DNA of 14,139 bases from Burkholderiaceae bacterium (GTDB lineage: Bacteria > Pseudomonadota > Gammaproteobacteria > Burkholderiales > Burkholderiaceae_C). A program made the translations under genes and the position numbers. The notes beneath the pieces are model-generated. The model worked only from the letters and a program-made list of their open reading frames with translations. It was not told where the DNA came from and searched no databases. The stretch is from the NCBI GenBank assembly GCA_023262365.1, contig JALRBF010000242.1:1-14139 (forward strand). The letters run 5' to 3'. Shown here one piece after another: positions 4,121 to 12,623 of this stretch; the stretch's first letter is position 1, and each line of letters opens with the position of its first letter.

Positions 4121-4139
4121 CTATAACCCGTTGGAATAG
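4121..4139 (+). promoter_or_regulatory. LysR-type T-N11-A operator upstream of the TRAP operon
   Basis: CTAT at 4121-4124, eleven bases, then ATAG at 4136-4139 form an interrupted dyad with the classic LysR T-N11-A spacing. The centre is 4130, about -63 from the start point predicted by the downstream promoter. This is the usual place for a LysR recognition site that activates. The same arrangement is found at 7999-8017. Confidence 0.65.
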
Positions 4140-4157
4140 AAAAAGCATTACCGGTTG

Positions 4158-4186
4158 TTGTTGGCTCGGGTTTTGCCGGCTATGCT
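4158..4186 (+). promoter_or_regulatory. Predicted sigma70-type promoter of the TRAP operon
   Basis: TTGTTG (4158-4163), a 17-base spacer and TATGCT (4181-4186) form a moderate sigma70-type promoter; the start point would fall near 4193. The segment upstream, GCAT-N4-GGTTGTTG at 4145-4160, and the -10 region GGCTATGCTC are shared at identical spacing with the Rieske operon promoter. The region between the lysine-poor lyase gene and dctP holds nothing else recognisable. Confidence 0.6.
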
Positions 4187-4219
4187 CAGGCGTCAATCCT
4201 CTTTTTAGGAGTAAGGTTC

Positions 4220-5242
4220 ATGATTCGTTCGACAGCGATGTTCACGGCCGCCGCGGCGTTGATGGTTTCGGCGGTTTCGGTGGTTCACAAGCCGGTGCAA
4301 GCCGCCGAGGTCAACCTAACATACGCCTTTTTTGCCCCTGCTGGCACCTTTCCGGGCAAACAAATGGCGCATTGGGCCGACCAACTGGCCAAGCGAACGA
4401 ATGGCAAGGTGGCGGTTAAGTTGTTCCCCGGCAGCACCTTGCTTGGCGCGCGCGACATGTACGACGGTGTGACCAAAGGTGTGGCCGACATTGGACTGGG
4501 AGCACCCTCGTATGACCCGGGGCGCTTTCCCTTAACCTCGGGCATGTCGCTGCCACTGGGCTTTACCAGCGCCACCCAAGCCAGCCAGGTGCTTTGGAAA
4601 GTGACGCAAGAATTTGATCCACAGGAGTACAAGCCGTACAAGGTGATCGCCATGTTCACCACCGAGCCGGGTTATATCCAGTCAAAAACGGCGGTGGGCA
4701 GCGCCGCCGATTTGGCGGGCATGAAGCTGCGTGCCGCAGGCACTGGGGTGCCGATACTCAAGCGCTTGGGCGCGGCCCCGGTTGGCATGCCCATGCCCGA
4801 GGTGCCTCAAGCGGTGCAAACTGGTGTCATTCAAGGCACCATGACCTCGCGTGAAGTGCTTAAAGATTTTCGCTTGGCCGAGTCGCTCAAGTTTGTGACG
4901 GACTACCCCACCGCGGTGGTGACCTTTGCGGCGGTGATGGACCGCAAGCGCTGGGATAAATTGCCGGCTGACGTGCAGAAAGTCATCGACCAGCTTGCCA
5001 ACGAGATGCCCACCTGGACGGGCAACTACCACGACAACCAAAACGTGGGCGCGGCGCTCACGTGGGCAAAAGACACCCACGGCTTGAAGGTGGTGTCGTT
5101 ATCAGCCACCGAGCGCAAGGCGTGGGACGCCAAACTTGCCCCCATGGTGAGCGATTGGGTTAAAGAGATGAGCGGCAAGGGGCTGCCGGCTGAAAAGTTT
5201 ATTCAGCGGGTTCAGGTGCTTCGCGACCAAACGGCCAAGTAA
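4220..5242 (+). CDS. dctP: TRAP transporter periplasmic solute-binding protein (DctP family)
   Basis: The protein has 340 residues, normal for the family. DctP proteins bind a substrate, mostly an organic acid, in the periplasm and deliver it to the DctQM membrane complex. The N-terminus MIRSTAMFTAAAALMVSAVS is a signal peptide, with likely cleavage after V-Q-A (residue 28). The mature protein begins AEVNLTYAFF, a typical first strand. R171 in GMKLRAAG is the conserved arginine that usually salt-bridges a substrate carboxylate. The following GVPILKRLGAAPVGMPMPEVPQAVQTGVIQG is a DctP hallmark. ATG 4220 has AGGAG at 4207-4211 (8-base spacing). It is first in an operon with dctQ (21-base gap) and dctM, behind a LysR-type promoter. 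The ligand is unknown; a carboxylate is inferred from R171. Confidence 0.92.
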   Translation: MIRSTAMFTAAAALMVSAVSVVHKPVQAAEVNLTYAFFAPAGTFPGKQMAHWADQLAKRTNGKVAVKLFPGSTLLGARDMYDGVTKGVADIGLGAPSYDPGRFPLTSGMSLPLGFTSATQASQVLWKVTQEFDPQEYKPYKVIAMFTTEPGYIQSKTAVGSAADLAGMKLRAAGTGVPILKRLGAAPVGMPMPEVPQAVQTGVIQGTMTSREVLKDFRLAESLKFVTDYPTAVVTFAAVMDRKRWDKLPADVQKVIDQLANEMPTWTGNYHDNQNVGAALTWAKDTHGLKVVSLSATERKAWDAKLAPMVSDWVKEMSGKGLPAEKFIQRVQVLRDQTAK

Positions 5243-5263
5243 CTTGGCGGTACACGCTTGCCC

Positions 5264-5758
5264 ATGCGGCCCCTACAAGCCGCACTGACGCTGGCCAATC
5301 AAGCCCTGGCTTGGTTGGCTGGCGTGCTGCTTTTGCTGATGATGCTGGTGGTCTCGGCCGACATTGGTATGCGGCTGCTTGGCCGCCCCATGGCCGGGGC
5401 GTACGAGATCATTGGTTGGCTCAGTGCGGGGGCCATGGCGCTGTCGCTGGGGTACGTGCAACTGCACCGCGGCCATGTGGCCATGACGTTGTTGTCGTCC
5501 CGGCTCAGTGGCAGGGCGGCTTTGCTGGTCTGTGGGCTGATGGAGCTGATCGCCATGCTGCTGTTTTTGTTTGTTAGCCGATTTATTTTTCAATACGCCT
5601 GGACGCTCTTTAACACGGGCTCATTGTCCGAAACGCTGCTGGCCCCGGTGTACCCCTGGGTGATGCTGGTGGGTTTGGGTTGCGCCGGGCTTACCCTGGT
5701 GCTTTTGCTTCACGTGTGCCAAACGCTTGCTCAGCTGTGGCAGGGGCCCAGCGCGTGA
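5264..5758 (+). CDS. dctQ: TRAP transporter small membrane subunit (DctQ family)
   Basis: The protein has 164 residues with four hydrophobic segments at about 15-33, 46-66, 82-104 and 125-150, as expected for DctQ. DctQ pairs with DctM to form the membrane part of a Na+-driven TRAP carrier. The segment VVSADIGMRLLGRPMAGAYEIIGWL resembles the family first-loop pattern (D-x-x-x-R, then P and YE). ATG 5264 was chosen; a TTG at 5258 would add two residues and has slightly better placed GGCGG (5246-5250). No strong ribosome binding site precedes either, so translation may depend on dctP. It lies between dctP and dctM with gaps of 21 and 27 bases. Confidence 0.88.
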   Translation: MRPLQAALTLANQALAWLAGVLLLLMMLVVSADIGMRLLGRPMAGAYEIIGWLSAGAMALSLGYVQLHRGHVAMTLLSSRLSGRAALLVCGLMELIAMLLFLFVSRFIFQYAWTLFNTGSLSETLLAPVYPWVMLVGLGCAGLTLVLLLHVCQTLAQLWQGPSA

Positions 5759-5785
5759 ACGCCAACGGCAGCCAGGCTTAAGCGC

Positions 5786-7090
5786 ATGGAGCACTCCACC
5801 GTTGCCTTGCTGGGTTTGGTGCTGCTGTTTGGCTTAATGGCCGTGGGCATGCCTATCAGTTTTGCCATGCTCTTGGGTGGGCTGTTGGGCAACGCGTATT
5901 TGTTGTCGGTGGGTGCTGCCACCCATTTGCTGGCCACCAACGTGTGGGAGCAGTTTTCATCGTATGGCTTGTCGGTGGTGCCGTTGTTTGTGTTGATGGG
6001 GCAGTTTGCCTACCGATCGGGCGCCACCGAGCGCTTGTACCAAGCCGCATACACCTGGTTTGGCCGGCTGCCCGGCGGACTGGCGGGCACAACCATTGCC
6101 GCATCGGCTGGTTTTTCTGCCATTTGTGGCTCCAACTCAGCCACGGCGGCAACCATGGGCACGATTGCCTTGCCCGAGATGCGCCGCTATGCGTACGACC
6201 CAGCGCTTAGTGCTGGCGCGGTGGCCGTAGGCGGCACGCTGGGGGTGATTATTCCGCCCAGTGTGGTGTTGATTGTGATTGCTGTGCAAACTGAGCAGTC
6301 GCTGTTGGCCTTGTTTTTGGCCGGCATTGTGCCTGGCTTGTTGCTGACGCTGATGTTCATGCTCACCGTGGTTGTGATGTGCATGCGCCGGCCCCACTTG
6401 GGCCCGGCTGCACCACAGACGAGCTGGGCACAGAAGTGGCGTTCGCTTGGCGGTGTCTTTGAAACCCTGAGTTTGTTTTTGCTGGTCATTGGGGGGCTGT
6501 ACTTTGGATTTTTTACGCCAACCGAGGCCGGAGCCGCTGGCGCCTTGGGGGCGCTGGTGATTGGCGTGGTGCAGCGCAAACTCAGCTTTAAAGGGTTTTG
6601 CGACGCCGTTGGCGAGACGTTGCGCATCTCCTCCATGGTGATCTTGCTGATCACCGGGGCGGTGTTGTTTGGGCGTTTTCTCACCGTCTCTCGCTTGCCG
6701 TTTGAATTGGCCGATTGGGTAATTACGCTGCCGGTGGCGCCAACGTTTATTCTGTTGGCGGTGGTGTTGATTTATTTGGTTGGTGGCGCGCTCATGGACG
6801 CGCTGGGCTTTTTGGTGGTGACCCTGCCGATTTTCTTTCCACTGGCCCAAGCGTTGGGTTACGACCCCATTTGGTTCACGATGCTGTTGACCATCATTAC
6901 CACCATGGGTGCGATCACGCCGCCAGTGGGGGTGAATGTGTTTATTGTCAAAGGGCTTGCGCCCGATATTTCGCTGGGTACGATTTTTCGGGGGGTGGCC
7001 TTTTTTGGCGTGGCCTACGTGGGCTGCGTGGCCGCGATTTGGCTGTATCCGTCGATTGTGCTGTGGTTGCCCAAAGCCCTGATGGGCTGA
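5786..7090 (+). CDS. dctM: TRAP transporter large membrane subunit (DctM family)
   Basis: The protein has 434 residues and is very hydrophobic, with about 12 predicted membrane helices; it is the transporting subunit of the TRAP carrier. Family signatures include the early VGMPISFAMLLGG, GSNSATAATMG (about 115-125), GGTLGVIIPPSVVLI (149-163), the strongly characteristic FTPTEAGAAGA (243-253) and AITPPVGVNVF (375-385). Together they make a complete, apparently intact permease. ATG 5786 has only a weak AGG at 5774-5776. It is the last gene of the TRAP operon and ends nine bases before the stop of the convergent lysR gene, leaving no room for a separate terminator. Confidence 0.92.
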   Translation: MEHSTVALLGLVLLFGLMAVGMPISFAMLLGGLLGNAYLLSVGAATHLLATNVWEQFSSYGLSVVPLFVLMGQFAYRSGATERLYQAAYTWFGRLPGGLAGTTIAASAGFSAICGSNSATAATMGTIALPEMRRYAYDPALSAGAVAVGGTLGVIIPPSVVLIVIAVQTEQSLLALFLAGIVPGLLLTLMFMLTVVVMCMRRPHLGPAAPQTSWAQKWRSLGGVFETLSLFLLVIGGLYFGFFTPTEAGAAGALGALVIGVVQRKLSFKGFCDAVGETLRISSMVILLITGAVLFGRFLTVSRLPFELADWVITLPVAPTFILLAVVLIYLVGGALMDALGFLVVTLPIFFPLAQALGYDPIWFTMLLTIITTMGAITPPVGVNVFIVKGLAPDISLGTIFRGVAFFGVAYVGCVAAIWLYPSIVLWLPKALMG

Positions 7091-7099
7091 GCGCCGACG

Positions 7100-8002
7100 C
7101 TAAAAGTGGCTGGTAGCCGTTTGGCGCAAGGCCTCGGTAAGTAAGCGGCTGGCTGGGGTAAGGGTGCCCTGGCGGCGCCGGGTGATACCCACCTGCCTTG
7201 CCCATTGAAGGCGGGATTCGGCCAGTACCATGAGTTGGCCGGCTTGTTCTTCCCAGTAAATCAGCTCTTTGGGAATAAAGGTCAGCATATCGCTTTGCAT
7301 GACCATGGCTTTCATTAAGACCGTTGAGGTGGTTTCAACCGAGGCTTTATCGATGTTGAAATGATGCTCTTTCACGAGTGCATCAAAGGCTTGCCGCTCC
7401 AGTTCGCGGCTGCGTGGCAGCACCCACTGCTGGCTGGCCAAGTCCGTGGCGTTGATGTGGCGTTTTTTGCTCAGCGGATGGTCAACTCGAGCGACGATGA
7501 CGCCTTTGTCCAAAAACAACTTGTCGTGGACCAGCGTGGCATCGGCGGGTTCCTGCGGAATGGATGAAATGGCAAAGTCGACTTCGCCGTGCCTCACCCA
7601 CGGCATGAGCGATTCATTAAGCCCGTACAACACCGTGACTCGGATTTCAGGGTGACTGGTGTGCAAACGTTGTAAGGCCAGGGGCAGCAGCCGGTTGGCC
7701 TCGGTGGGGCCACAGCCCACCAGCACGTGGCCACGGGTGGCGTCTTTGAGTGCCTCAATCTCACCCACGGCGTTGCGCAGCTCGGCCTCCACCAGTTGGC
7801 CTCGGGCCAGTAAGGCCTCGCCATAGGGCGTGGGCGCCACGCCAAAGCGACCGCGCTCGAGCAAGGCCACACCCAGCGACCGTTCAAGTGTCTTGATGCC
7901 TTTGGATAAGGCGGGTTGAGATATGCCCAACTCGTAAGCCGCGGTGGTGAGGTTGCCGTGGCGAACCGCTGCCATGAAGTGTTGCAAGCGTCGGTAATCC
8001 AT
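7100..8002 (-). CDS. LysR-type transcriptional regulator
   Basis: The protein has 300 residues, the family norm. It has an N-terminal winged helix-turn-helix (MDYRRLQHFMAAVRHGNLTT, then AAYELGISQPALSKGIKTLE, residues 1-40), a linker helix, and a C-terminal effector-binding domain from about residue 90 (GHVLVGCGPTEANRLLPLAL onward). LysR proteins usually activate a divergent operon when a pathway metabolite binds, and repress themselves. It is divergent from the Rieske operon and next to the TRAP operon, and both of those promoters carry matching T-N11-A boxes. ATG 8002 gives the usual LysR N-terminus; ATG 8026 would add MLFSLQLV and overlap the conserved promoter block. No ribosome binding site precedes 8002, and a TACAAT lies only five bases upstream, so the message may be leaderless. 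The effector is unknown. Confidence 0.9.
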   Translation of the reverse strand: MDYRRLQHFMAAVRHGNLTTAAYELGISQPALSKGIKTLERSLGVALLERGRFGVAPTPYGEALLARGQLVEAELRNAVGEIEALKDATRGHVLVGCGPTEANRLLPLALQRLHTSHPEIRVTVLYGLNESLMPWVRHGEVDFAISSIPQEPADATLVHDKLFLDKGVIVARVDHPLSKKRHINATDLASQQWVLPRSRELERQAFDALVKEHHFNIDKASVETTSTVLMKAMVMQSDMLTFIPKELIYWEEQAGQLMVLAESRLQWARQVGITRRRQGTLTPASRLLTEALRQTATSHF

Positions 8003-8017
8003 AACCAATTGTAATGA
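7999..8017 (+). promoter_or_regulatory. LysR-type T-N11-A operator between lysR and the Rieske operon
   Basis: CCAT at 7999-8002, eleven bases, then ATGA at 8014-8017 give T8002-N11-A8014 inside an imperfect palindrome spanning 8000-8016 (six of eight base pairs complementary). The centre is 8008, about -63 from the predicted start of the Rieske transcript. The left half is the reverse complement of the lysR start codon, so a protein bound here would also block lysR expression. Confidence 0.7.
8008..8013 (-). promoter_or_regulatory. Possible -10 box for lysR (leaderless transcript)
   Basis: On the minus strand TACAAT (5 of 6 matches to TATAAT) ends five bases before the lysR ATG. Transcription would then start at or next to the start codon. 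No convincing -35 stands 16-18 bases upstream. The box lies exactly in the centre of the T-N11-A operator, which would suit autorepression. Confidence 0.35.
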
Positions 8018-8035
8018 AAAAAGCATGAAAGGTTG

Positions 8036-8064
8036 TTGGACATCCGTTGGGCTCTGGCTATGCT
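8036..8064 (+). promoter_or_regulatory. Predicted sigma70-type promoter of the Rieske oxygenase operon
   Basis: TTGGAC (8036-8041), a 17-base spacer and TATGCT (8059-8064); the start point would be near 8071. GCAT-N4-GGTTGTTG (8023-8038) and GGCTATGCTC (8056-8065) recur at the same spacing in front of dctP. Over 70 ungapped bases (7999-8068 against 4121-4190) I count 46 identities, with 31 in the first 40. Confidence 0.65.
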
Positions 8065-8084
8065 CGGGTTATTCGCAAAAGCCA

Positions 8085-8095: not shown

Positions 8096-9442
8096 ATGAC
8101 ATTGACCAACTTAGGCACGCTTGTAGAGGATGATCGCGTTCACCGCTCGGTGTACACCGACCCCGAGATTTTTGATCTCGAAATGGCGCACATATGGGAA
8201 AAAATATGGGTGTACTGCGGGCATGAGTCGCAAGTGCCCAAGGTGGGCGACTACTACACCTTGCAAATTGGCCGCCAGCCCATGGTGATGGTGCGTGACA
8301 AGGAAAAGCGCGTGAACGTGTTGTACAACCGCTGCCCCCACCGGGGTGTGCAGTTGTGCGGCAACCAGTCGGGTAACACCGGCAACGGTTTTGTGTGTTC
8401 TTACCATGCGTGGAGCTTTCATCTGGACGGCAAGGTGCGGGCGATTCCGCTCATGAAAGGGTACGACGACACGCGCTGGAGTAAAGACAACCCCGACTGC
8501 AACATGAAAGCGGCGCCTCGCGTTGAAAGCTACCGGGGCTTTGTGTTTGCCAGCTTGGCTGAATCCGGGCCGAGCCTAGCCGAGTTTTTGGGCGATGCGC
8601 GGGTGGCGTTTGACGACATTTGTGATCGTTCGCCTGTGGGTGAGGTTGAAGCGGTGCCGGTGTGCCACCGGGTAATGCAGCGGTCGAACTGGAAGTTTTT
8701 TATGGAGAACCAGCTCGACGCCTTGCACGCGTCGGTAACCCACCAGTCAACCGGGGTGTCGGCGCGGCGGGTGGAGCAACGGGTAAAAGACGAAAAAGGC
8801 AGTGCGCCCTTGTTTTTTCACTATCTCTCGGCGTTTGCCACCAGCTTTGATCAGTGGGATTCGGTGCAGACGGTGAATTTTCCTAATGGTCATGGGATTC
8901 TTAAAGCCTACATGGGGCTGCGGCCCACCGACCCCGACACGGTGGCCTACGAAGACTTGCTGCGCCAAGCCTACGGCGAGCAAAAGACGGAGGAGTACTT
9001 GTCGCGCAGCATTCACCACGTGCTGGTGTACCCCTACCTGTCGGTTCAGTCGCCGCTGCAACAGCTGCGCTGCTTGCGCCCGATTGCGCCGAACAAAACG
9101 CTCTCAGAGATTTGGCACTTTCGCCTCAAGGGCGTGCCCGATGCGATTTACAAACGCTCGCTGTGGTACTTTAACTTAGTGAATTCGCCTTCAACCATGA
9201 TCAATGCCGACGACTTGGAGAACTGGACTAAAGGTCAATGGGGTTTGGAGAGTGAAAAAGCCGGGGATTGGGTGAGCTTTCACCGCGATCACGGTCGCGA
9301 CACGGTGGACCAAGGCGTGCATTACTCAAACTCCGGGACGTCCGAGGTGGTGATGCGCAACCAGTTTCAGGCCTGGAAGCAGTACATGACACAAGCCGCA
9401 TCGCCACAGGCCAAGCCACGCGACGCCAAAGAAGCCGCATGA
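8096..9442 (+). CDS. Rieske ring-hydroxylating oxygenase, large (alpha) subunit
   Basis: The protein has 448 residues, typical for the alpha subunit of an aromatic-ring-hydroxylating dioxygenase. Such subunits hold a Rieske [2Fe-2S] cluster and a mononuclear non-heme iron and usually insert O2 into aromatic acids. The Rieske motif is C80-P-H82 and C101-S-Y-H104; the 18-residue spacing is one longer than the usual 15-17. The catalytic domain shows NWKFFMENQLDALHASVTH, giving bridging D208 and iron ligands H211 and H216; the third ligand is D372 or D373 in NADDLENW. All key residues are present. It is first in an operon with the beta subunit (33-base gap) and the flavoprotein. The general look is of benzoate-, salicylate- or terephthalate-type oxygenases, but the substrate cannot be assigned. 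Confidence 0.92.
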   Translation: MTLTNLGTLVEDDRVHRSVYTDPEIFDLEMAHIWEKIWVYCGHESQVPKVGDYYTLQIGRQPMVMVRDKEKRVNVLYNRCPHRGVQLCGNQSGNTGNGFVCSYHAWSFHLDGKVRAIPLMKGYDDTRWSKDNPDCNMKAAPRVESYRGFVFASLAESGPSLAEFLGDARVAFDDICDRSPVGEVEAVPVCHRVMQRSNWKFFMENQLDALHASVTHQSTGVSARRVEQRVKDEKGSAPLFFHYLSAFATSFDQWDSVQTVNFPNGHGILKAYMGLRPTDPDTVAYEDLLRQAYGEQKTEEYLSRSIHHVLVYPYLSVQSPLQQLRCLRPIAPNKTLSEIWHFRLKGVPDAIYKRSLWYFNLVNSPSTMINADDLENWTKGQWGLESEKAGDWVSFHRDHGRDTVDQGVHYSNSGTSEVVMRNQFQAWKQYMTQAASPQAKPRDAKEAA

Positions 9443-9475
9443 TTGGCTTGATGGGTTGGAATGAGGAGTAATGAA

Positions 9476-10102
9476 ATGAGTGAAGCACGAGTAAAAGACG
9501 AACTGGGTAAAGGGGTGGTGATTGAAGCCATCGAGTCGATGACCGGGGCTGAATCGATTGCGCCTGATCACATGGGGCGAGGCTCGGCACCCGCAACGTT
9601 TTATGTCCCCAGCACGGCAGTTTGCAGCCCGCAGCAGCGCATGGAGTTTGAAAACTTGCTGTACTTGCAAGCCATTGCGCTGGACGCCAAGCGGTGGCAA
9701 GACTGGATGGACATGTTTACCGAAGACGGCATGTATTGGGCGCCGTCGCGGCCTGAGCAAACCGACTGGGAACTTGAGCCGTCGATATTTGCCGAAGACC
9801 GGCTGCTTATGGAGATTCGCATGGGGCGGTTGCTGCACCCCAACGCCTGGTCACAGGCGGCGCATTGGCAGACCAACCACATGGTGGGCAATATGTTGGT
9901 TGAATCGCTTACCGACTCAAGCGCCGAGGTCTACTCGCGTTTTCAAATGATGGAGCTTAGGCGCGATGACGTGCGCCACTTGGGGGGAAGCTACCGCCAT
10001 TCGTTGGTCAAGGTTAAGGGCGAATGGAAAATCAAAATGCAGCGAGTGGACCTCACCAATGCCCAAGCCGCGTTTGACTATGTGATTCAGGCTTGGGTAT
10101 AG
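9476..10102 (+). CDS. Rieske ring-hydroxylating oxygenase, small (beta) subunit
   Basis: The protein has 208 residues and an NTF2-like fold pattern: an N-terminal extension of about 50 residues, then EFENLLYLQAIALDAKRWQDW and MDMFTEDGMYWAP, the typical helix plus strand of beta subunits, with the closing GEWKIKMQRVDLTN. It forms the alpha3beta3 hexamer with the alpha subunit and has no metal site of its own. ATG 9476 has AGGAG at 9464-9468 (7-base spacing); the in-frame ATG at 9461 lies before that site. The N-terminal extension (residues 1-50, with GAESIAPDHMGRGSAPATFY) is longer than in many beta subunits. It is followed after 24 bases by the flavoprotein gene. Confidence 0.9.
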   Translation: MSEARVKDELGKGVVIEAIESMTGAESIAPDHMGRGSAPATFYVPSTAVCSPQQRMEFENLLYLQAIALDAKRWQDWMDMFTEDGMYWAPSRPEQTDWELEPSIFAEDRLLMEIRMGRLLHPNAWSQAAHWQTNHMVGNMLVESLTDSSAEVYSRFQMMELRRDDVRHLGGSYRHSLVKVKGEWKIKMQRVDLTNAQAAFDYVIQAWV

Positions 10103-10126: not shown

Positions 10127-11599
10127 ATGTGGCAACCGAGTGAGCGCATCCGTTACCAGTCGTCGCTGGGCCCCGTACCCAGCGCACAAGCCGTGGCGCA
10201 GTCGCGCCTGTTTGACCCGGTGAGGGTTGGCGCGCTTGAGCTGACCAACCGCATATGGGTGCCGGCCATGGTGCCATGGCGCGCCAACGAAGCGGGCGAA
10301 GTGACCGATGACGTGATTGACTGGTACGCCCGGTTTGCACAAGGGCAACCCGGTGCCATCGTGATGGAGGCCACCGGCATTCGCGATGTGCCCAGCGGCC
10401 CTTTACTTAGGTTAAGCCACGACCGGTACATTGCCGGCTTGCAACGCGTGGTTGAGGCGGTAAAGCGCGCCAGCGGGGGCAAAACGCGTTTGCTGATTCA
10501 ACTGATTGATTTTCTGCGTATTCGCCGCCGCCCCAACCCCGAGACGTTTTTTAGGCGGCATCTGGTGCTCTCGGCGGCGCTGCTGCAACGCGCTGGGCTT
10601 GACCCGGCGACGCCGCCCGATGAGGCGCGTGAGGCTTTGCTTAGCCTAGGGCCGGCGCGCTGGCAGCAGGTGTTGGATGCTGCCGATTACAGGGACTTGC
10701 AGTATGGCGCACGCGAGTCAGTCAACGATGTGCACTTGCCACACGTGGCCTCGCTGCCTCATGAGCTGCCCGAGCTGTTTGCCCAGGCTGCGGCCCGCGC
10801 CAAGCAGGCGGGGCTGGATGGGGTGGAGTTGCACTACGCGCACGCGTACACCATGGCGTCTTTTTTGTCGACCACCAACACGCGCAGCGACGGCTACGGT
10901 GGATCGCTTGAGAACCGCTTAAAAGTGCCCCTGGCGGTGCTTGCACGGGTGCGTGACCGGGTCGGCACTGGGTTTACGGTGGGCTGCCGCATGCTAACCG
11001 AGGAGTGCATTGACGGCGGTACCTCAGTTGATGTGTCCTGCCAATACGCCGTGGCACTGGCCAAGGCAGGCATGGACTTTATTTCAACCAGTCGCGGCGG
11101 AAAATTTGACGATGCCAAGCAACCCGGGGTGGGGCAGGCGGCTTACCCGTACACCGGGCGCAGCGGCTACGAGTGCATGCCGTCGCGCATTTCAGACGCG
11201 TTGGGGCCGTTTGGGCGCAACCGTCACGCCACGCAACGTGTGCGTCACGCGCTGAGGGCGCAGGGCCTGGAGCAACCCGTGGTAGGGGTGGGCGGTATTC
11301 ATAACTTTGCCCAAGCCGAGGAGATGCTAAACGCGCAGGTGTGCGACGTGGTCGGTTTGGCACGCCAGTCGCTGGCCGACCCCGATTGGCCACGCAAGAT
11401 ACGCGATGGTCACGCGTCCAGTGTGCGCGTGTGCGAGTACACCAATTACTGCGAGGGCTTAGACCAAAAGCATAAGCAAGTGACGTGTCAATTGTGGGAC
11501 CGGCAGGGTATGCAGGCTCCTGGGGTCAAAAAAACCCACGATGGCAAGCGCCGATTGGTGGCGCCCGAGTGGTCGCCGATTGCGGTGATTACGGGTTAA
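10127..11599 (+). CDS. Old-Yellow-Enzyme-family NAD(P)H:flavin oxidoreductase with variant cysteine motif
   Basis: The protein has 490 residues. The FMN-binding TIM barrel begins LFDPVRVGALELTNRIWVPAM (28-48). The active-site strand GVELHYAHAYTMASFL supplies H236, H239 and Y241, followed by the family hallmark RSDGYGGSLENR (253-264). GVGGI at 387-391 and CDVVGLARQSLADPDWP at 406-422 are the phosphate-binding and closing segments. Two departures stand out. The usual QLxHxGR loop is replaced by QLIDFLRIRRRPN and an insert of about 70 residues (130-200). The C-terminal iron-sulfur motif CxxCxxxC-X11-12-C is reduced to C436-X5-C442-X11-C454. There is no FAD/NAD(P) Rossmann part after it. It may reduce or rearrange the product of the Rieske enzyme. 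Its stop overlaps the convergent VanA-like gene by 11 bases. The start has only a weak ribosome binding site. Confidence 0.85.
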   Translation: MWQPSERIRYQSSLGPVPSAQAVAQSRLFDPVRVGALELTNRIWVPAMVPWRANEAGEVTDDVIDWYARFAQGQPGAIVMEATGIRDVPSGPLLRLSHDRYIAGLQRVVEAVKRASGGKTRLLIQLIDFLRIRRRPNPETFFRRHLVLSAALLQRAGLDPATPPDEAREALLSLGPARWQQVLDAADYRDLQYGARESVNDVHLPHVASLPHELPELFAQAAARAKQAGLDGVELHYAHAYTMASFLSTTNTRSDGYGGSLENRLKVPLAVLARVRDRVGTGFTVGCRMLTEECIDGGTSVDVSCQYAVALAKAGMDFISTSRGGKFDDAKQPGVGQAAYPYTGRSGYECMPSRISDALGPFGRNRHATQRVRHALRAQGLEQPVVGVGGIHNFAQAEEMLNAQVCDVVGLARQSLADPDWPRKIRDGHASSVRVCEYTNYCEGLDQKHKQVTCQLWDRQGMQAPGVKKTHDGKRRLVAPEWSPIAVITG

Positions 11600-12623
11600 G
11601 TGCCTCGGCTTCGTGCTGCAGACGGCGCTTAATCATCATGCGAATCATGTTTAAGGCCTTGTCGGCGGCAATGCCGCGCATGGGGGCTTCGGGGTTGTCG
11701 TGAATGTTTTGTTGTTGCGCTTCAATCATTTGGCGGTCTTCTTCGAACGCGGTGTCGATGCCTTTTTTTACCTTGCCAATCAGGGTGTCGTCTGGCCGGG
11801 GGAACTGACACGGTTGGATCCAAAAGTAGTGCGTGGTGTGCTCGGTCTCTGGGGTAAGAAGAGAAAAGTGTCGCAACAGAAAAGCGCCAGGTTGTTCGTG
11901 CGCCGGGCCGGGTGTGGACGCTTCGACCGAGCCGGCCCAGTTTTCAAACACACTGGGTAGCCACCATGCTTGGCGGTTCCAAAAATTGACTCTTCCCTCA
12001 AACTTACCCGCCATTTGGTGCAATGGAGATGGCTGCGCATCGCGGATTTCGCGTGTGAGGCGAATGCCTTGATCGAAGGGCTCGATAGCGGGTTGCGCGT
12101 TGGGAAACGCGTTGTTAGCCAGCGTGGTTTTGTGCACAAAGGTAAGGTGCGAGAAGTCGAGCAAGTTGTCAACGATGAGCTGGTAGTTGGCTCGGTAGTG
12201 AATGTAGCCTTGTGTGCTTTGCCATTGCGAGTCGGTATGCCAGTGACAGTCCACGATGGCGCTTACTGAGGCTTGAGCACGGTCGCCTAGCCATATCCAC
12301 ACAAAGCCATGTTGTTCGTGTACCAGGTAATCTTGAACACACATCCGGGCATCGATTTGCGTTTGTCCCGGTATTTCAATGCACTGCCCGGTGGGGGCAA
12401 ACTTCATGCCGTGGTAGCCGCACCGAATGCCATCGGGTTCCACCTCGCCGCGCGACAGCGGCGCCATGCGGTGGCAGCAGCGGTCTTCGAGCGCGGCTGG
12501 CGCACCTGAAGCGGTGCGAAACAACACCACACGCTGGCCCAGCAGCGTGCGGGCCAGTGGTTGGTTGCTGAGTTCTTGAGAGAAACAGGCAACGTACCAG
12601 GCGTTTTTTATAAAAGGGCTCAT
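11589..12623 (-). CDS. VanA-like Rieske monooxygenase (O-demethylase type)
   Basis: The protein has 344 residues, close to VanA-type single-component oxygenase subunits, which remove O-methyl groups or hydroxylate side chains using electrons from a separate reductase. The Rieske motif is C49-C-H51 followed by C68-G-Y-H71 (16-residue spacing). The iron site is N153-L-L-D156-F-S-H159-L-T-F-V-H164, with third ligand D296 in FEEDRQMIEAQQ, the usual VanA C-terminal signature. The N-terminus MSPFIKNAWYVACFSQEL is also typical, so ATG 12623 was chosen although no clear ribosome binding site precedes it. The frame is open upstream without family similarity. It lies 121 bases after the alcohol dehydrogenase gene, and no strong own promoter was found. 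No VanB-type reductase is nearby. The substrate is unknown. Confidence 0.9.
   Translation of the reverse strand: MSPFIKNAWYVACFSQELSNQPLARTLLGQRVVLFRTASGAPAALEDRCCHRMAPLSRGEVEPDGIRCGYHGMKFAPTGQCIEIPGQTQIDARMCVQDYLVHEQHGFVWIWLGDRAQASVSAIVDCHWHTDSQWQSTQGYIHYRANYQLIVDNLLDFSHLTFVHKTTLANNAFPNAQPAIEPFDQGIRLTREIRDAQPSPLHQMAGKFEGRVNFWNRQAWWLPSVFENWAGSVEASTPGPAHEQPGAFLLRHFSLLTPETEHTTHYFWIQPCQFPRPDDTLIGKVKKGIDTAFEEDRQMIEAQQQNIHDNPEAPMRGIAADKALNMIRMMIKRRLQHEAEALNP

Follow-up and report, generated by a model that had tools for sequence, protein, structure and literature searches.

The stretch of DNA analysed here, referred to as the window, is a contig of 14,139 nucleotides (C257) in a Burkholderiaceae genome (G000) that measures 1.9 Mb in 376 contigs. 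It opens with a DUF2130 gene and the genes of a YdjM-type membrane protein, an EthD-like protein and a CitE-like protein of the HpcH/HpaI family. It continues with the tripartite ATP-independent periplasmic (TRAP) transporter genes dctPQM, a lysR gene on the minus strand, the alpha and beta subunit genes of a Rieske oxygenase, and a flavin mononucleotide (FMN) oxidoreductase gene. The minus-strand end carries the gene of a VanA-type Rieske oxygenase, followed by that of a zinc alcohol dehydrogenase. Two similar blocks, one before dctP and one between lysR and alpha, have the layout of LysR-type operators, and it is probable that a PcaQ-like LysR protein co-controls alpha-beta and dctPQM through these twin sites.

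Twin operator blocks before dctP and the Rieske alpha gene

Aligned without gaps, positions 4121-4190 and 7999-8068 are identical at 46 of 70 bases, with 31 identities in the first 40 and 15 in the last 30. The recount returned the figures that a first-pass annotation of this DNA had obtained by hand (46/70 and 31/40). It also reproduced the rest of that description, in which a dyad, a GCAT-N4 word, a TTG-type -35, a 17-base spacer and a shared -10 stand at the same distances in both blocks; all elements share one offset of 3878. The T-N11-A dyads are centred at 4130 and 8008 (Table 1). GCAT-N4-GGTTGTTG is present at 4145-4160 and 8023-8038, and the ten bases GGCTATGCTC are common to both -10 regions (4178-4187 and 8056-8065). 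Transcription starts predicted near 4193 and 8071 would place both dyad centres at -63, in agreement with the position proposed earlier. At 7999-8068, a T-N11-A dyad near -65 of the predicted start is combined with a proximal site at the -35 of a divergent target, the arrangement by which a LysR operator is recognized. The operator there abuts or overlaps the start of lysR, whose start codon is 8000-8002. The likeness ends at this codon on one side and right after the -10 on the other. The near flanks are unlike, sharing 3 of 20 bases immediately before the common stretch and 1 of 20 immediately after it (offsets 80-99). Further out, in steps of 20 bases, 3 to 8 of 20 are identical; the exception is the step at offset -100 to -81, where 12 of 20 agree.

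In Markov simulations of the window (n=20), the best ungapped pairs reached up to 43/70 and 30/40, so the 31 of 40 taken alone is just above chance and is weak evidence. A match to a sigma-70 promoter is not significant by itself (1 found against 1.3 expected). The promoter call is supported by the fixed place of the -10, which occupies operator positions 59-64 in both window promoters, as it does in orthologous alpha promoters (T59 in 27 of 29, A60 in 22 of 29, T64 in 29 of 29).

The twin operators are taken as real mainly because a matrix built independently of the window matches both. Upstream DNA was compared for the best 80 of 236 loci encoding an orthologous alpha subunit (L035-L114). 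A footprint of the form ATAACC-N-ATGGTAATGGAAAAAGCAT-N4-GGTTGT precedes alpha in other genomes, and its GCAT part is altered in one subgroup. Sites with at most two mismatches to ATAACCNATGGTAAT and a GGTTGT-like word entered the matrix; these came from 36 loci and represent 29 distinct sites, with the window excluded. Weaker variants (for example, L036, L053, L054, L063, L066, L069 and L103) stayed outside the matrix and are included in the lysR and operator counts given below. With this matrix, the site at 8001 reaches 55.6 and the one at 4123 reaches 41.0. No other site in the window exceeds -2.9, and 20 Mb of random Markov sequence yields at most 10.4. These scores are decisive over raw identity, and they bear out the earlier reading of both blocks as LysR-type operators of the same geometry. 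Nearly invariant columns are kept at 20 of 23 positions at the dctP site and at 22 of 23 at the alpha site.

Table 1. Positions of genes and predicted regulatory elements in the window
Feature	Position	Strand	Evidence
Putative LysR recognition dyad before dctP, ATAACCCGTTGGAAT, T-N11-A, flanks CTATA-N9-AATAG at 4121-4139	4123..4137	+	Position weight matrix (PWM) score 41.0
Putative proximal (activation) site before dctP, AGAAAAAGCAT-N4-GGTTGTTGT, runs into -35	4138..4161	+	Ortholog model 4135-4161, E 2.4e-4
Predicted dctPQM promoter: -35 TTGTTG 4158-4163, 17-base spacer, -10 TATGCT 4181-4186	4158..4186	+	Predicted start ~4193
dctP, TRAP solute-binding protein	4220..5242	+	PF03480 5.8e-41; nearest PDB chains 4n6d, 4pgn/4pgp, 4nap
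dctQ, TRAP small permease	5258..5758	+	PF04290 2e-13
dctM, TRAP large permease	5786..7090	+	PF06808 2.4e-88
lysR, proposed regulator	7100..8002	-	PF00126, PF03466; nearest NCBIfam model PcaQ (TIGR02424)
Putative LysR recognition dyad between lysR and alpha, ATAACCAATTGTAAT, centre 8008	8001..8015	+	PWM 55.6; genome-scan E 1.4e-9; conserved in orthologues
Putative proximal (activation) site before alpha, GAAAAAAGCATGAAAGGTTGTTGG	8016..8039	+	Ortholog model 8001-8039
Predicted alpha-beta promoter: -35 TTGGAC 8036-8041, 17-base spacer, -10 TATGCT 8059-8064	8036..8064	+	Predicted start ~8071
Rieske oxygenase alpha subunit	8096..9442	+	PF00355, PF00848; nearest PDB chains 9o71_A, 7yls_B/8h2t
Rieske oxygenase beta subunit	9461..10102	+	PF00866 6.3e-24; nearest PDB chain 7yls_A, also in 9o71
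FMN oxidoreductase, old yellow enzyme type	10127..11599	+	PF00724 1.3e-41
VanA-type Rieske oxygenase	11589..12623	-	Nearest solved structure dicamba O-demethylase DdmC, 168 bits

The two sites are exclusive within their genome. A pattern scan allowing up to three mismatches found exactly two places in the 1.9 Mb of genome sequence, the twin sites, and none with the reversed control; the equally good unrelated matches that would have spoken against the first-pass annotation are thus absent. A model of the 29 sites, with 150 of 486 first-look candidates scored, recovered 8001-8039 at an E-value of 1.4e-9 and 4135-4161 at 2.4e-4; no further hit appeared at E<=10. The sequence AAAAAGCATNNNNGGTTGTTG has zero-mismatch genome copies only in the dctP proximal site and at 8018, and two more places match it at three mismatches. 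Before the other genes of the window, no operator scores above 5 with the matrix.

Of 41 relatives, taken from the 80 loci, 36 show a single match better than 5e-7 (next best 0.02); the strong matches are largely the model's own building sites and so partly circular, and the informative part is the missing second site. All 30 of the 36 strong sites that were position-checked lie at most 300 bases before alpha. As far as the 80 orthologous alpha loci reach, none has a second operator with a matrix score above 10. In a search of 399 family genomes, with stricter filters and 16 candidates scored per genome, three had a model match at E<=0.001: the genome of the window with two, G327 with one, which is the alpha promoter by its coordinates, and G093 with a borderline match of matrix score 6.3. 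None of nine other genomes of the same genus, some of them incomplete, encodes alpha at E<=1e-100.

The LysR regulator and its proposed mode of action

The lysR product carries an N-terminal HTH_1 domain and a C-terminal substrate domain, both above their cut-offs. It scores 176.9 bits against the PcaQ model TIGR02424 (176.4 in the genome search), under the equivalog cut-off of 303.8, and it tops the nine matches to this model in its own genome, the next of which scores 127.8 bits. A divergent lysR lies beside alpha in 51 of the 80 loci, and the operator before alpha is strong in 37 of these, weak in 5 and absent in 9. In the 29 loci without lysR, no operator was found upstream of alpha. The operator motif also resembles that of PcaQ. 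PMC3572157 gives the Burkholderiales PcaQ consensus as ATAAC-N5-GTTAT; the alpha-side motif ATAAC-N5-GTAAT is one base off, and the dctP-side motif ATAAC-N5-GGAAT is two bases off.

Alpha-beta is most likely under activation by the lysR product, and so is dctPQM in the present genome. We infer the following course from what the computation shows: the two operators, the lack of further copies in the genome, the conserved footprint among relatives, and its occurrence together with lysR. The LysR of 7100-8002 would act as an activator similar to PcaQ. As a rule, its single strong operator would stand between lysR and the divergent alpha-beta genes. A LysR dimer would sit on the ATAACC-N3-GGTAAT dyad near -63. 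In the presence of an inducer, a second dimer would occupy AAAAAGCAT-N4-GGTTGTTG beside the -35, and RNA polymerase would be recruited. The dyad would also repress lysR itself, as expected from its abutting the lysR start codon. Through the second operator of the same layout, in the gap between citE and dctP, the same LysR would switch on the TRAP importer. As a result, import and first oxidation of one aromatic acid, possibly indolic or aryl-alkanoic, would be switched together.

This probable transport-plus-oxidation regulon would belong to the kind represented by PcaQ, a LysR-type activator of the pca genes described in Sinorhizobium, Agrobacterium and the Burkholderiales, which in S. meliloti also controls the pcaMNVWX importer. 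The window system shares with it the nearest NCBIfam model, the divergent gene pair, a similar operator of the form ATAAC-N5-GT(T/A)AT and, as predicted, control of a transporter operon. According to PMC5002191, the PcaQ site is centred 65.5 bp upstream of pcaMNVWX, whose product its reference list calls an ATP-binding cassette (ABC)-type transport system. Autorepression, proposed here, is described for PcaQ in A. tumefaciens. In contrast to PcaQ, the window LysR scores below the model cut-off and its second half-site is GTAAT. Its divergent target is Rieske alpha-beta instead of the protocatechuate ring-cleavage (pca) genes, and its importer is of the TRAP instead of the ABC type. The nearest solved LysR structure is TsaR, the LysR-type regulator of tsaMBCD (PDB 3fxq, 93.1 bits), which is distant in sequence and also regulates an aromatic-acid oxygenase cluster. 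A literature search of titles found no account of a LysR-TRAP-Rieske regulon, which does not show that none exists.

A variant operator, ATAAC(C/T)AAAAGT(A/T)AT with a downstream GTTCTT, was seen before alpha in L053, L054, L063 and L069. These loci carry similar LysR proteins.

The transporter side and alternative explanations

Several observations weigh against shared control by this LysR. The operator is absent before all five dctP orthologues examined in other genomes (L077/L163, L037/L164, L116/L160, L117/L161 and L162/L168). Among the 50 alpha-bearing genomes searched, which cover 50 of the 80 loci, just three encode a dctP orthologue (E<=1e-100), and the pairing of importer and alpha is thus not fixed. 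Columns 8, 10 and 12, all nearly invariant, are changed in the dctP dyad. The regulator lies below the PcaQ cut-off, and since matches to TIGR02424 under its cut-off turn up in 10 of 14 control genomes as well, the resemblance to PcaQ is partly general LysR likeness. The co-occurrence of lysR and operator is partly circular because of shared ancestry and because the matrix derives from lysR-bearing loci, and one of the 29 loci without lysR (L035) is weakened by 100 N in its 351 upstream bases. Identity of the helix-turn-helix (HTH) region was considered as proof of the binder and rejected: in 50 of the 51 lysR loci its rank correlation with the site score (Spearman 0.40) is below that of whole-protein identity (0.58). 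Mean HTH identities over 62 residues are 44.3 with a strong site (36 loci), 42.4 with a weak one (5) and 33.6 with none (9), the last pulled down by one misregistered row (L083). The genome itself is 90.67% complete.

A comparison across genomes, as the first-pass annotation had proposed, thus gives a divided answer. The alpha side has its strong operator in 37 of 51 lysR loci, whereas the dctP side has none in five, and the expectation that orthologous loci would share the block fails on the transporter side. A TRAP and dioxygenase regulon under LysR retains the alpha-side footprint with lysR and the two-site exclusiveness in its favour; as a conserved regulon it is counted against, because dctP orthologues lack the operator and relatives have a single strong site. 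In the comparison made here, only this genome shows an operator before dctP; its nearest relatives, with DctP and alpha 94% identical, are known as proteins alone. The TRAP link looks like a lineage-specific regulon expansion, in which the alpha half is conserved and the TRAP half is a local addition.

A functional link between TRAP and alpha is supported by the importer neighbouring alpha in two of the three other genomes, L037 and L077, as well. In L037, dctPQM lies directly before alpha on the same strand, and lysR was not found there. In L077, the importer precedes a 3-hydroxyacyl-CoA dehydrogenase gene and lysR. We tentatively suggest that a regulator with one strong operator in relatives captured dctPQM in the present genome through a second complete operator and promoter of fixed geometry, that the L037 lineage coupled importer and oxygenase in one gene run, and that import and oxidation of an indole-3-acetic acid (IAA)-like aromatic acid may have been joined twice by different routes. 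If true, the two lineages would form a natural experiment on how regulons grow, set around an uncharacterised Rieske family that has a fixed pocket of its own. The twin sites also offer an apparent case of regulon growth in themselves, since relatives have one operator and this genome two, in which operator and -10 are preserved and the intervening bases differ. An unassigned Rieske oxygenase family of the Burkholderiales that occurs in many freshwater genomes would gain a regulator and a genome-searchable operator, and in one lineage also a candidate importer, which would allow a joint search for inducer and substrate.

The similarity of the blocks could also have arisen by copying. A recent promoter duplication finds no support in the spacer, the near flanks and the free operator columns, which agree between the twins at 4 of 9 positions, compared with a mean of 3.9 of 9 with the sites of other genomes. 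In this respect, the first-pass annotation was right to set aside a recent duplication, but an old copy of the promoter with a scrambled spacer is possible. The dctP block would then be an old and drifted copy of the alpha promoter, produced by promoter duplication or gene conversion, and maybe a relic under weak or no LysR control. In favour of this reading, GGCTATGCTC is shared in full by both -10 regions, although orthologues vary there, and has only three occurrences in the genome, the third inside an open frame (L165); the degraded right half of the dctP dyad (TGGAAT in place of GGTAAT) points the same way. The unlike spacer and near flanks and the ordinary agreement in the free columns tell against it, and drift would not be expected to keep 20 of 23 constrained columns together with the -10. 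On balance, we consider an old copy unlikely.

It is very improbable that another regulator of the genome reads both blocks instead of the adjacent LysR. Besides the window LysR, eight more matches to the PcaQ model occur in the genome, and neighbourhood alone is no proof of the binder. However, the operator accompanies the adjacent lysR across loci, the window LysR gives the best of the nine matches to the PcaQ model, and the motif itself is PcaQ-like. A site within three mismatches occurs nowhere else in the genome and so beside no other LysR gene. Least credible of all is a chance similarity or dispersed intergenic repeat devoid of regulatory meaning: the DUF2130 pair described next exceeds the twins, simulations reach 30/40 and the sigma-70 match is at chance level, but a dispersed repeat is ruled out by the presence of two genome copies only (up to three mismatches), the matrix scores stand far above random and the footprint recurs in many genomes. 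The DUF2130 gene contains a direct repeat, with about 460-529 and 667-736 alike at 49 of 70 bases at a spacing of 207, compared with 46 of 70 in the twin blocks. An RNA leader was considered and rejected, as the window has no match to an Rfam family.

The oxygenase, its substrate and neighbouring genes

The alpha subunit has the Rieske Cys-His ligands and the 2-His-1-Asp iron site (C80, H82, C101, H104, H211, H216 and D373), and a PF00866 beta subunit is encoded beside it. The nearest solved relatives of both subunits belong to IadDE, the auxin dioxygenase of Variovorax, identified as PDB 9o71 in PMC12633357. PDB 7yls and 8h2t are associated with PMC10374108 as IadDE, and neither code was found in its main text. 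Like IadD, the window alpha keeps all iron ligands, and 7 of the 9 IAA-pocket residues listed in PMC10374108. It differs from IadD in sequence, agreeing with 7yls_B in 144 of the first 408 aligned columns, and in the pocket, where L211 and K322 are replaced by Q206 and Q318. These two glutamines are invariant in all of the 120 best-listed of 2597 alpha homologues. The homologues appear to form a coherent and seemingly uncharacterised Rieske family beside the auxin dioxygenases. The substrate may be an aromatic acid related to, and different from, IAA. The regulation also differs, as the Variovorax iad genes are under MarR proteins and are accompanied by ABC binding proteins. A second Rieske alpha gene lies elsewhere in the genome (G000:C360:838-2124) with 38% identity to the window alpha.

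DctP, DctQ and DctM are encoded in order on a single strand, as in a TRAP transporter. The ligands of the PDB entries 4pgn, 4pgp and 4nap, among the nearest to DctP, we take to be indolic acids.

Judging from the spacing, the FMN oxidoreductase gene is probably in one transcript with alpha-beta. An orthologue follows beta in 10 of the 80 alpha loci, some of which end too early to show one. The matrix scan of the window found no operator of the twin type upstream of the VanA-type Rieske gene. This gene is convergent with the FMN oxidoreductase gene and overlaps its end. Near the start of the window, the EthD-like protein scores under the cut-off of its own model.

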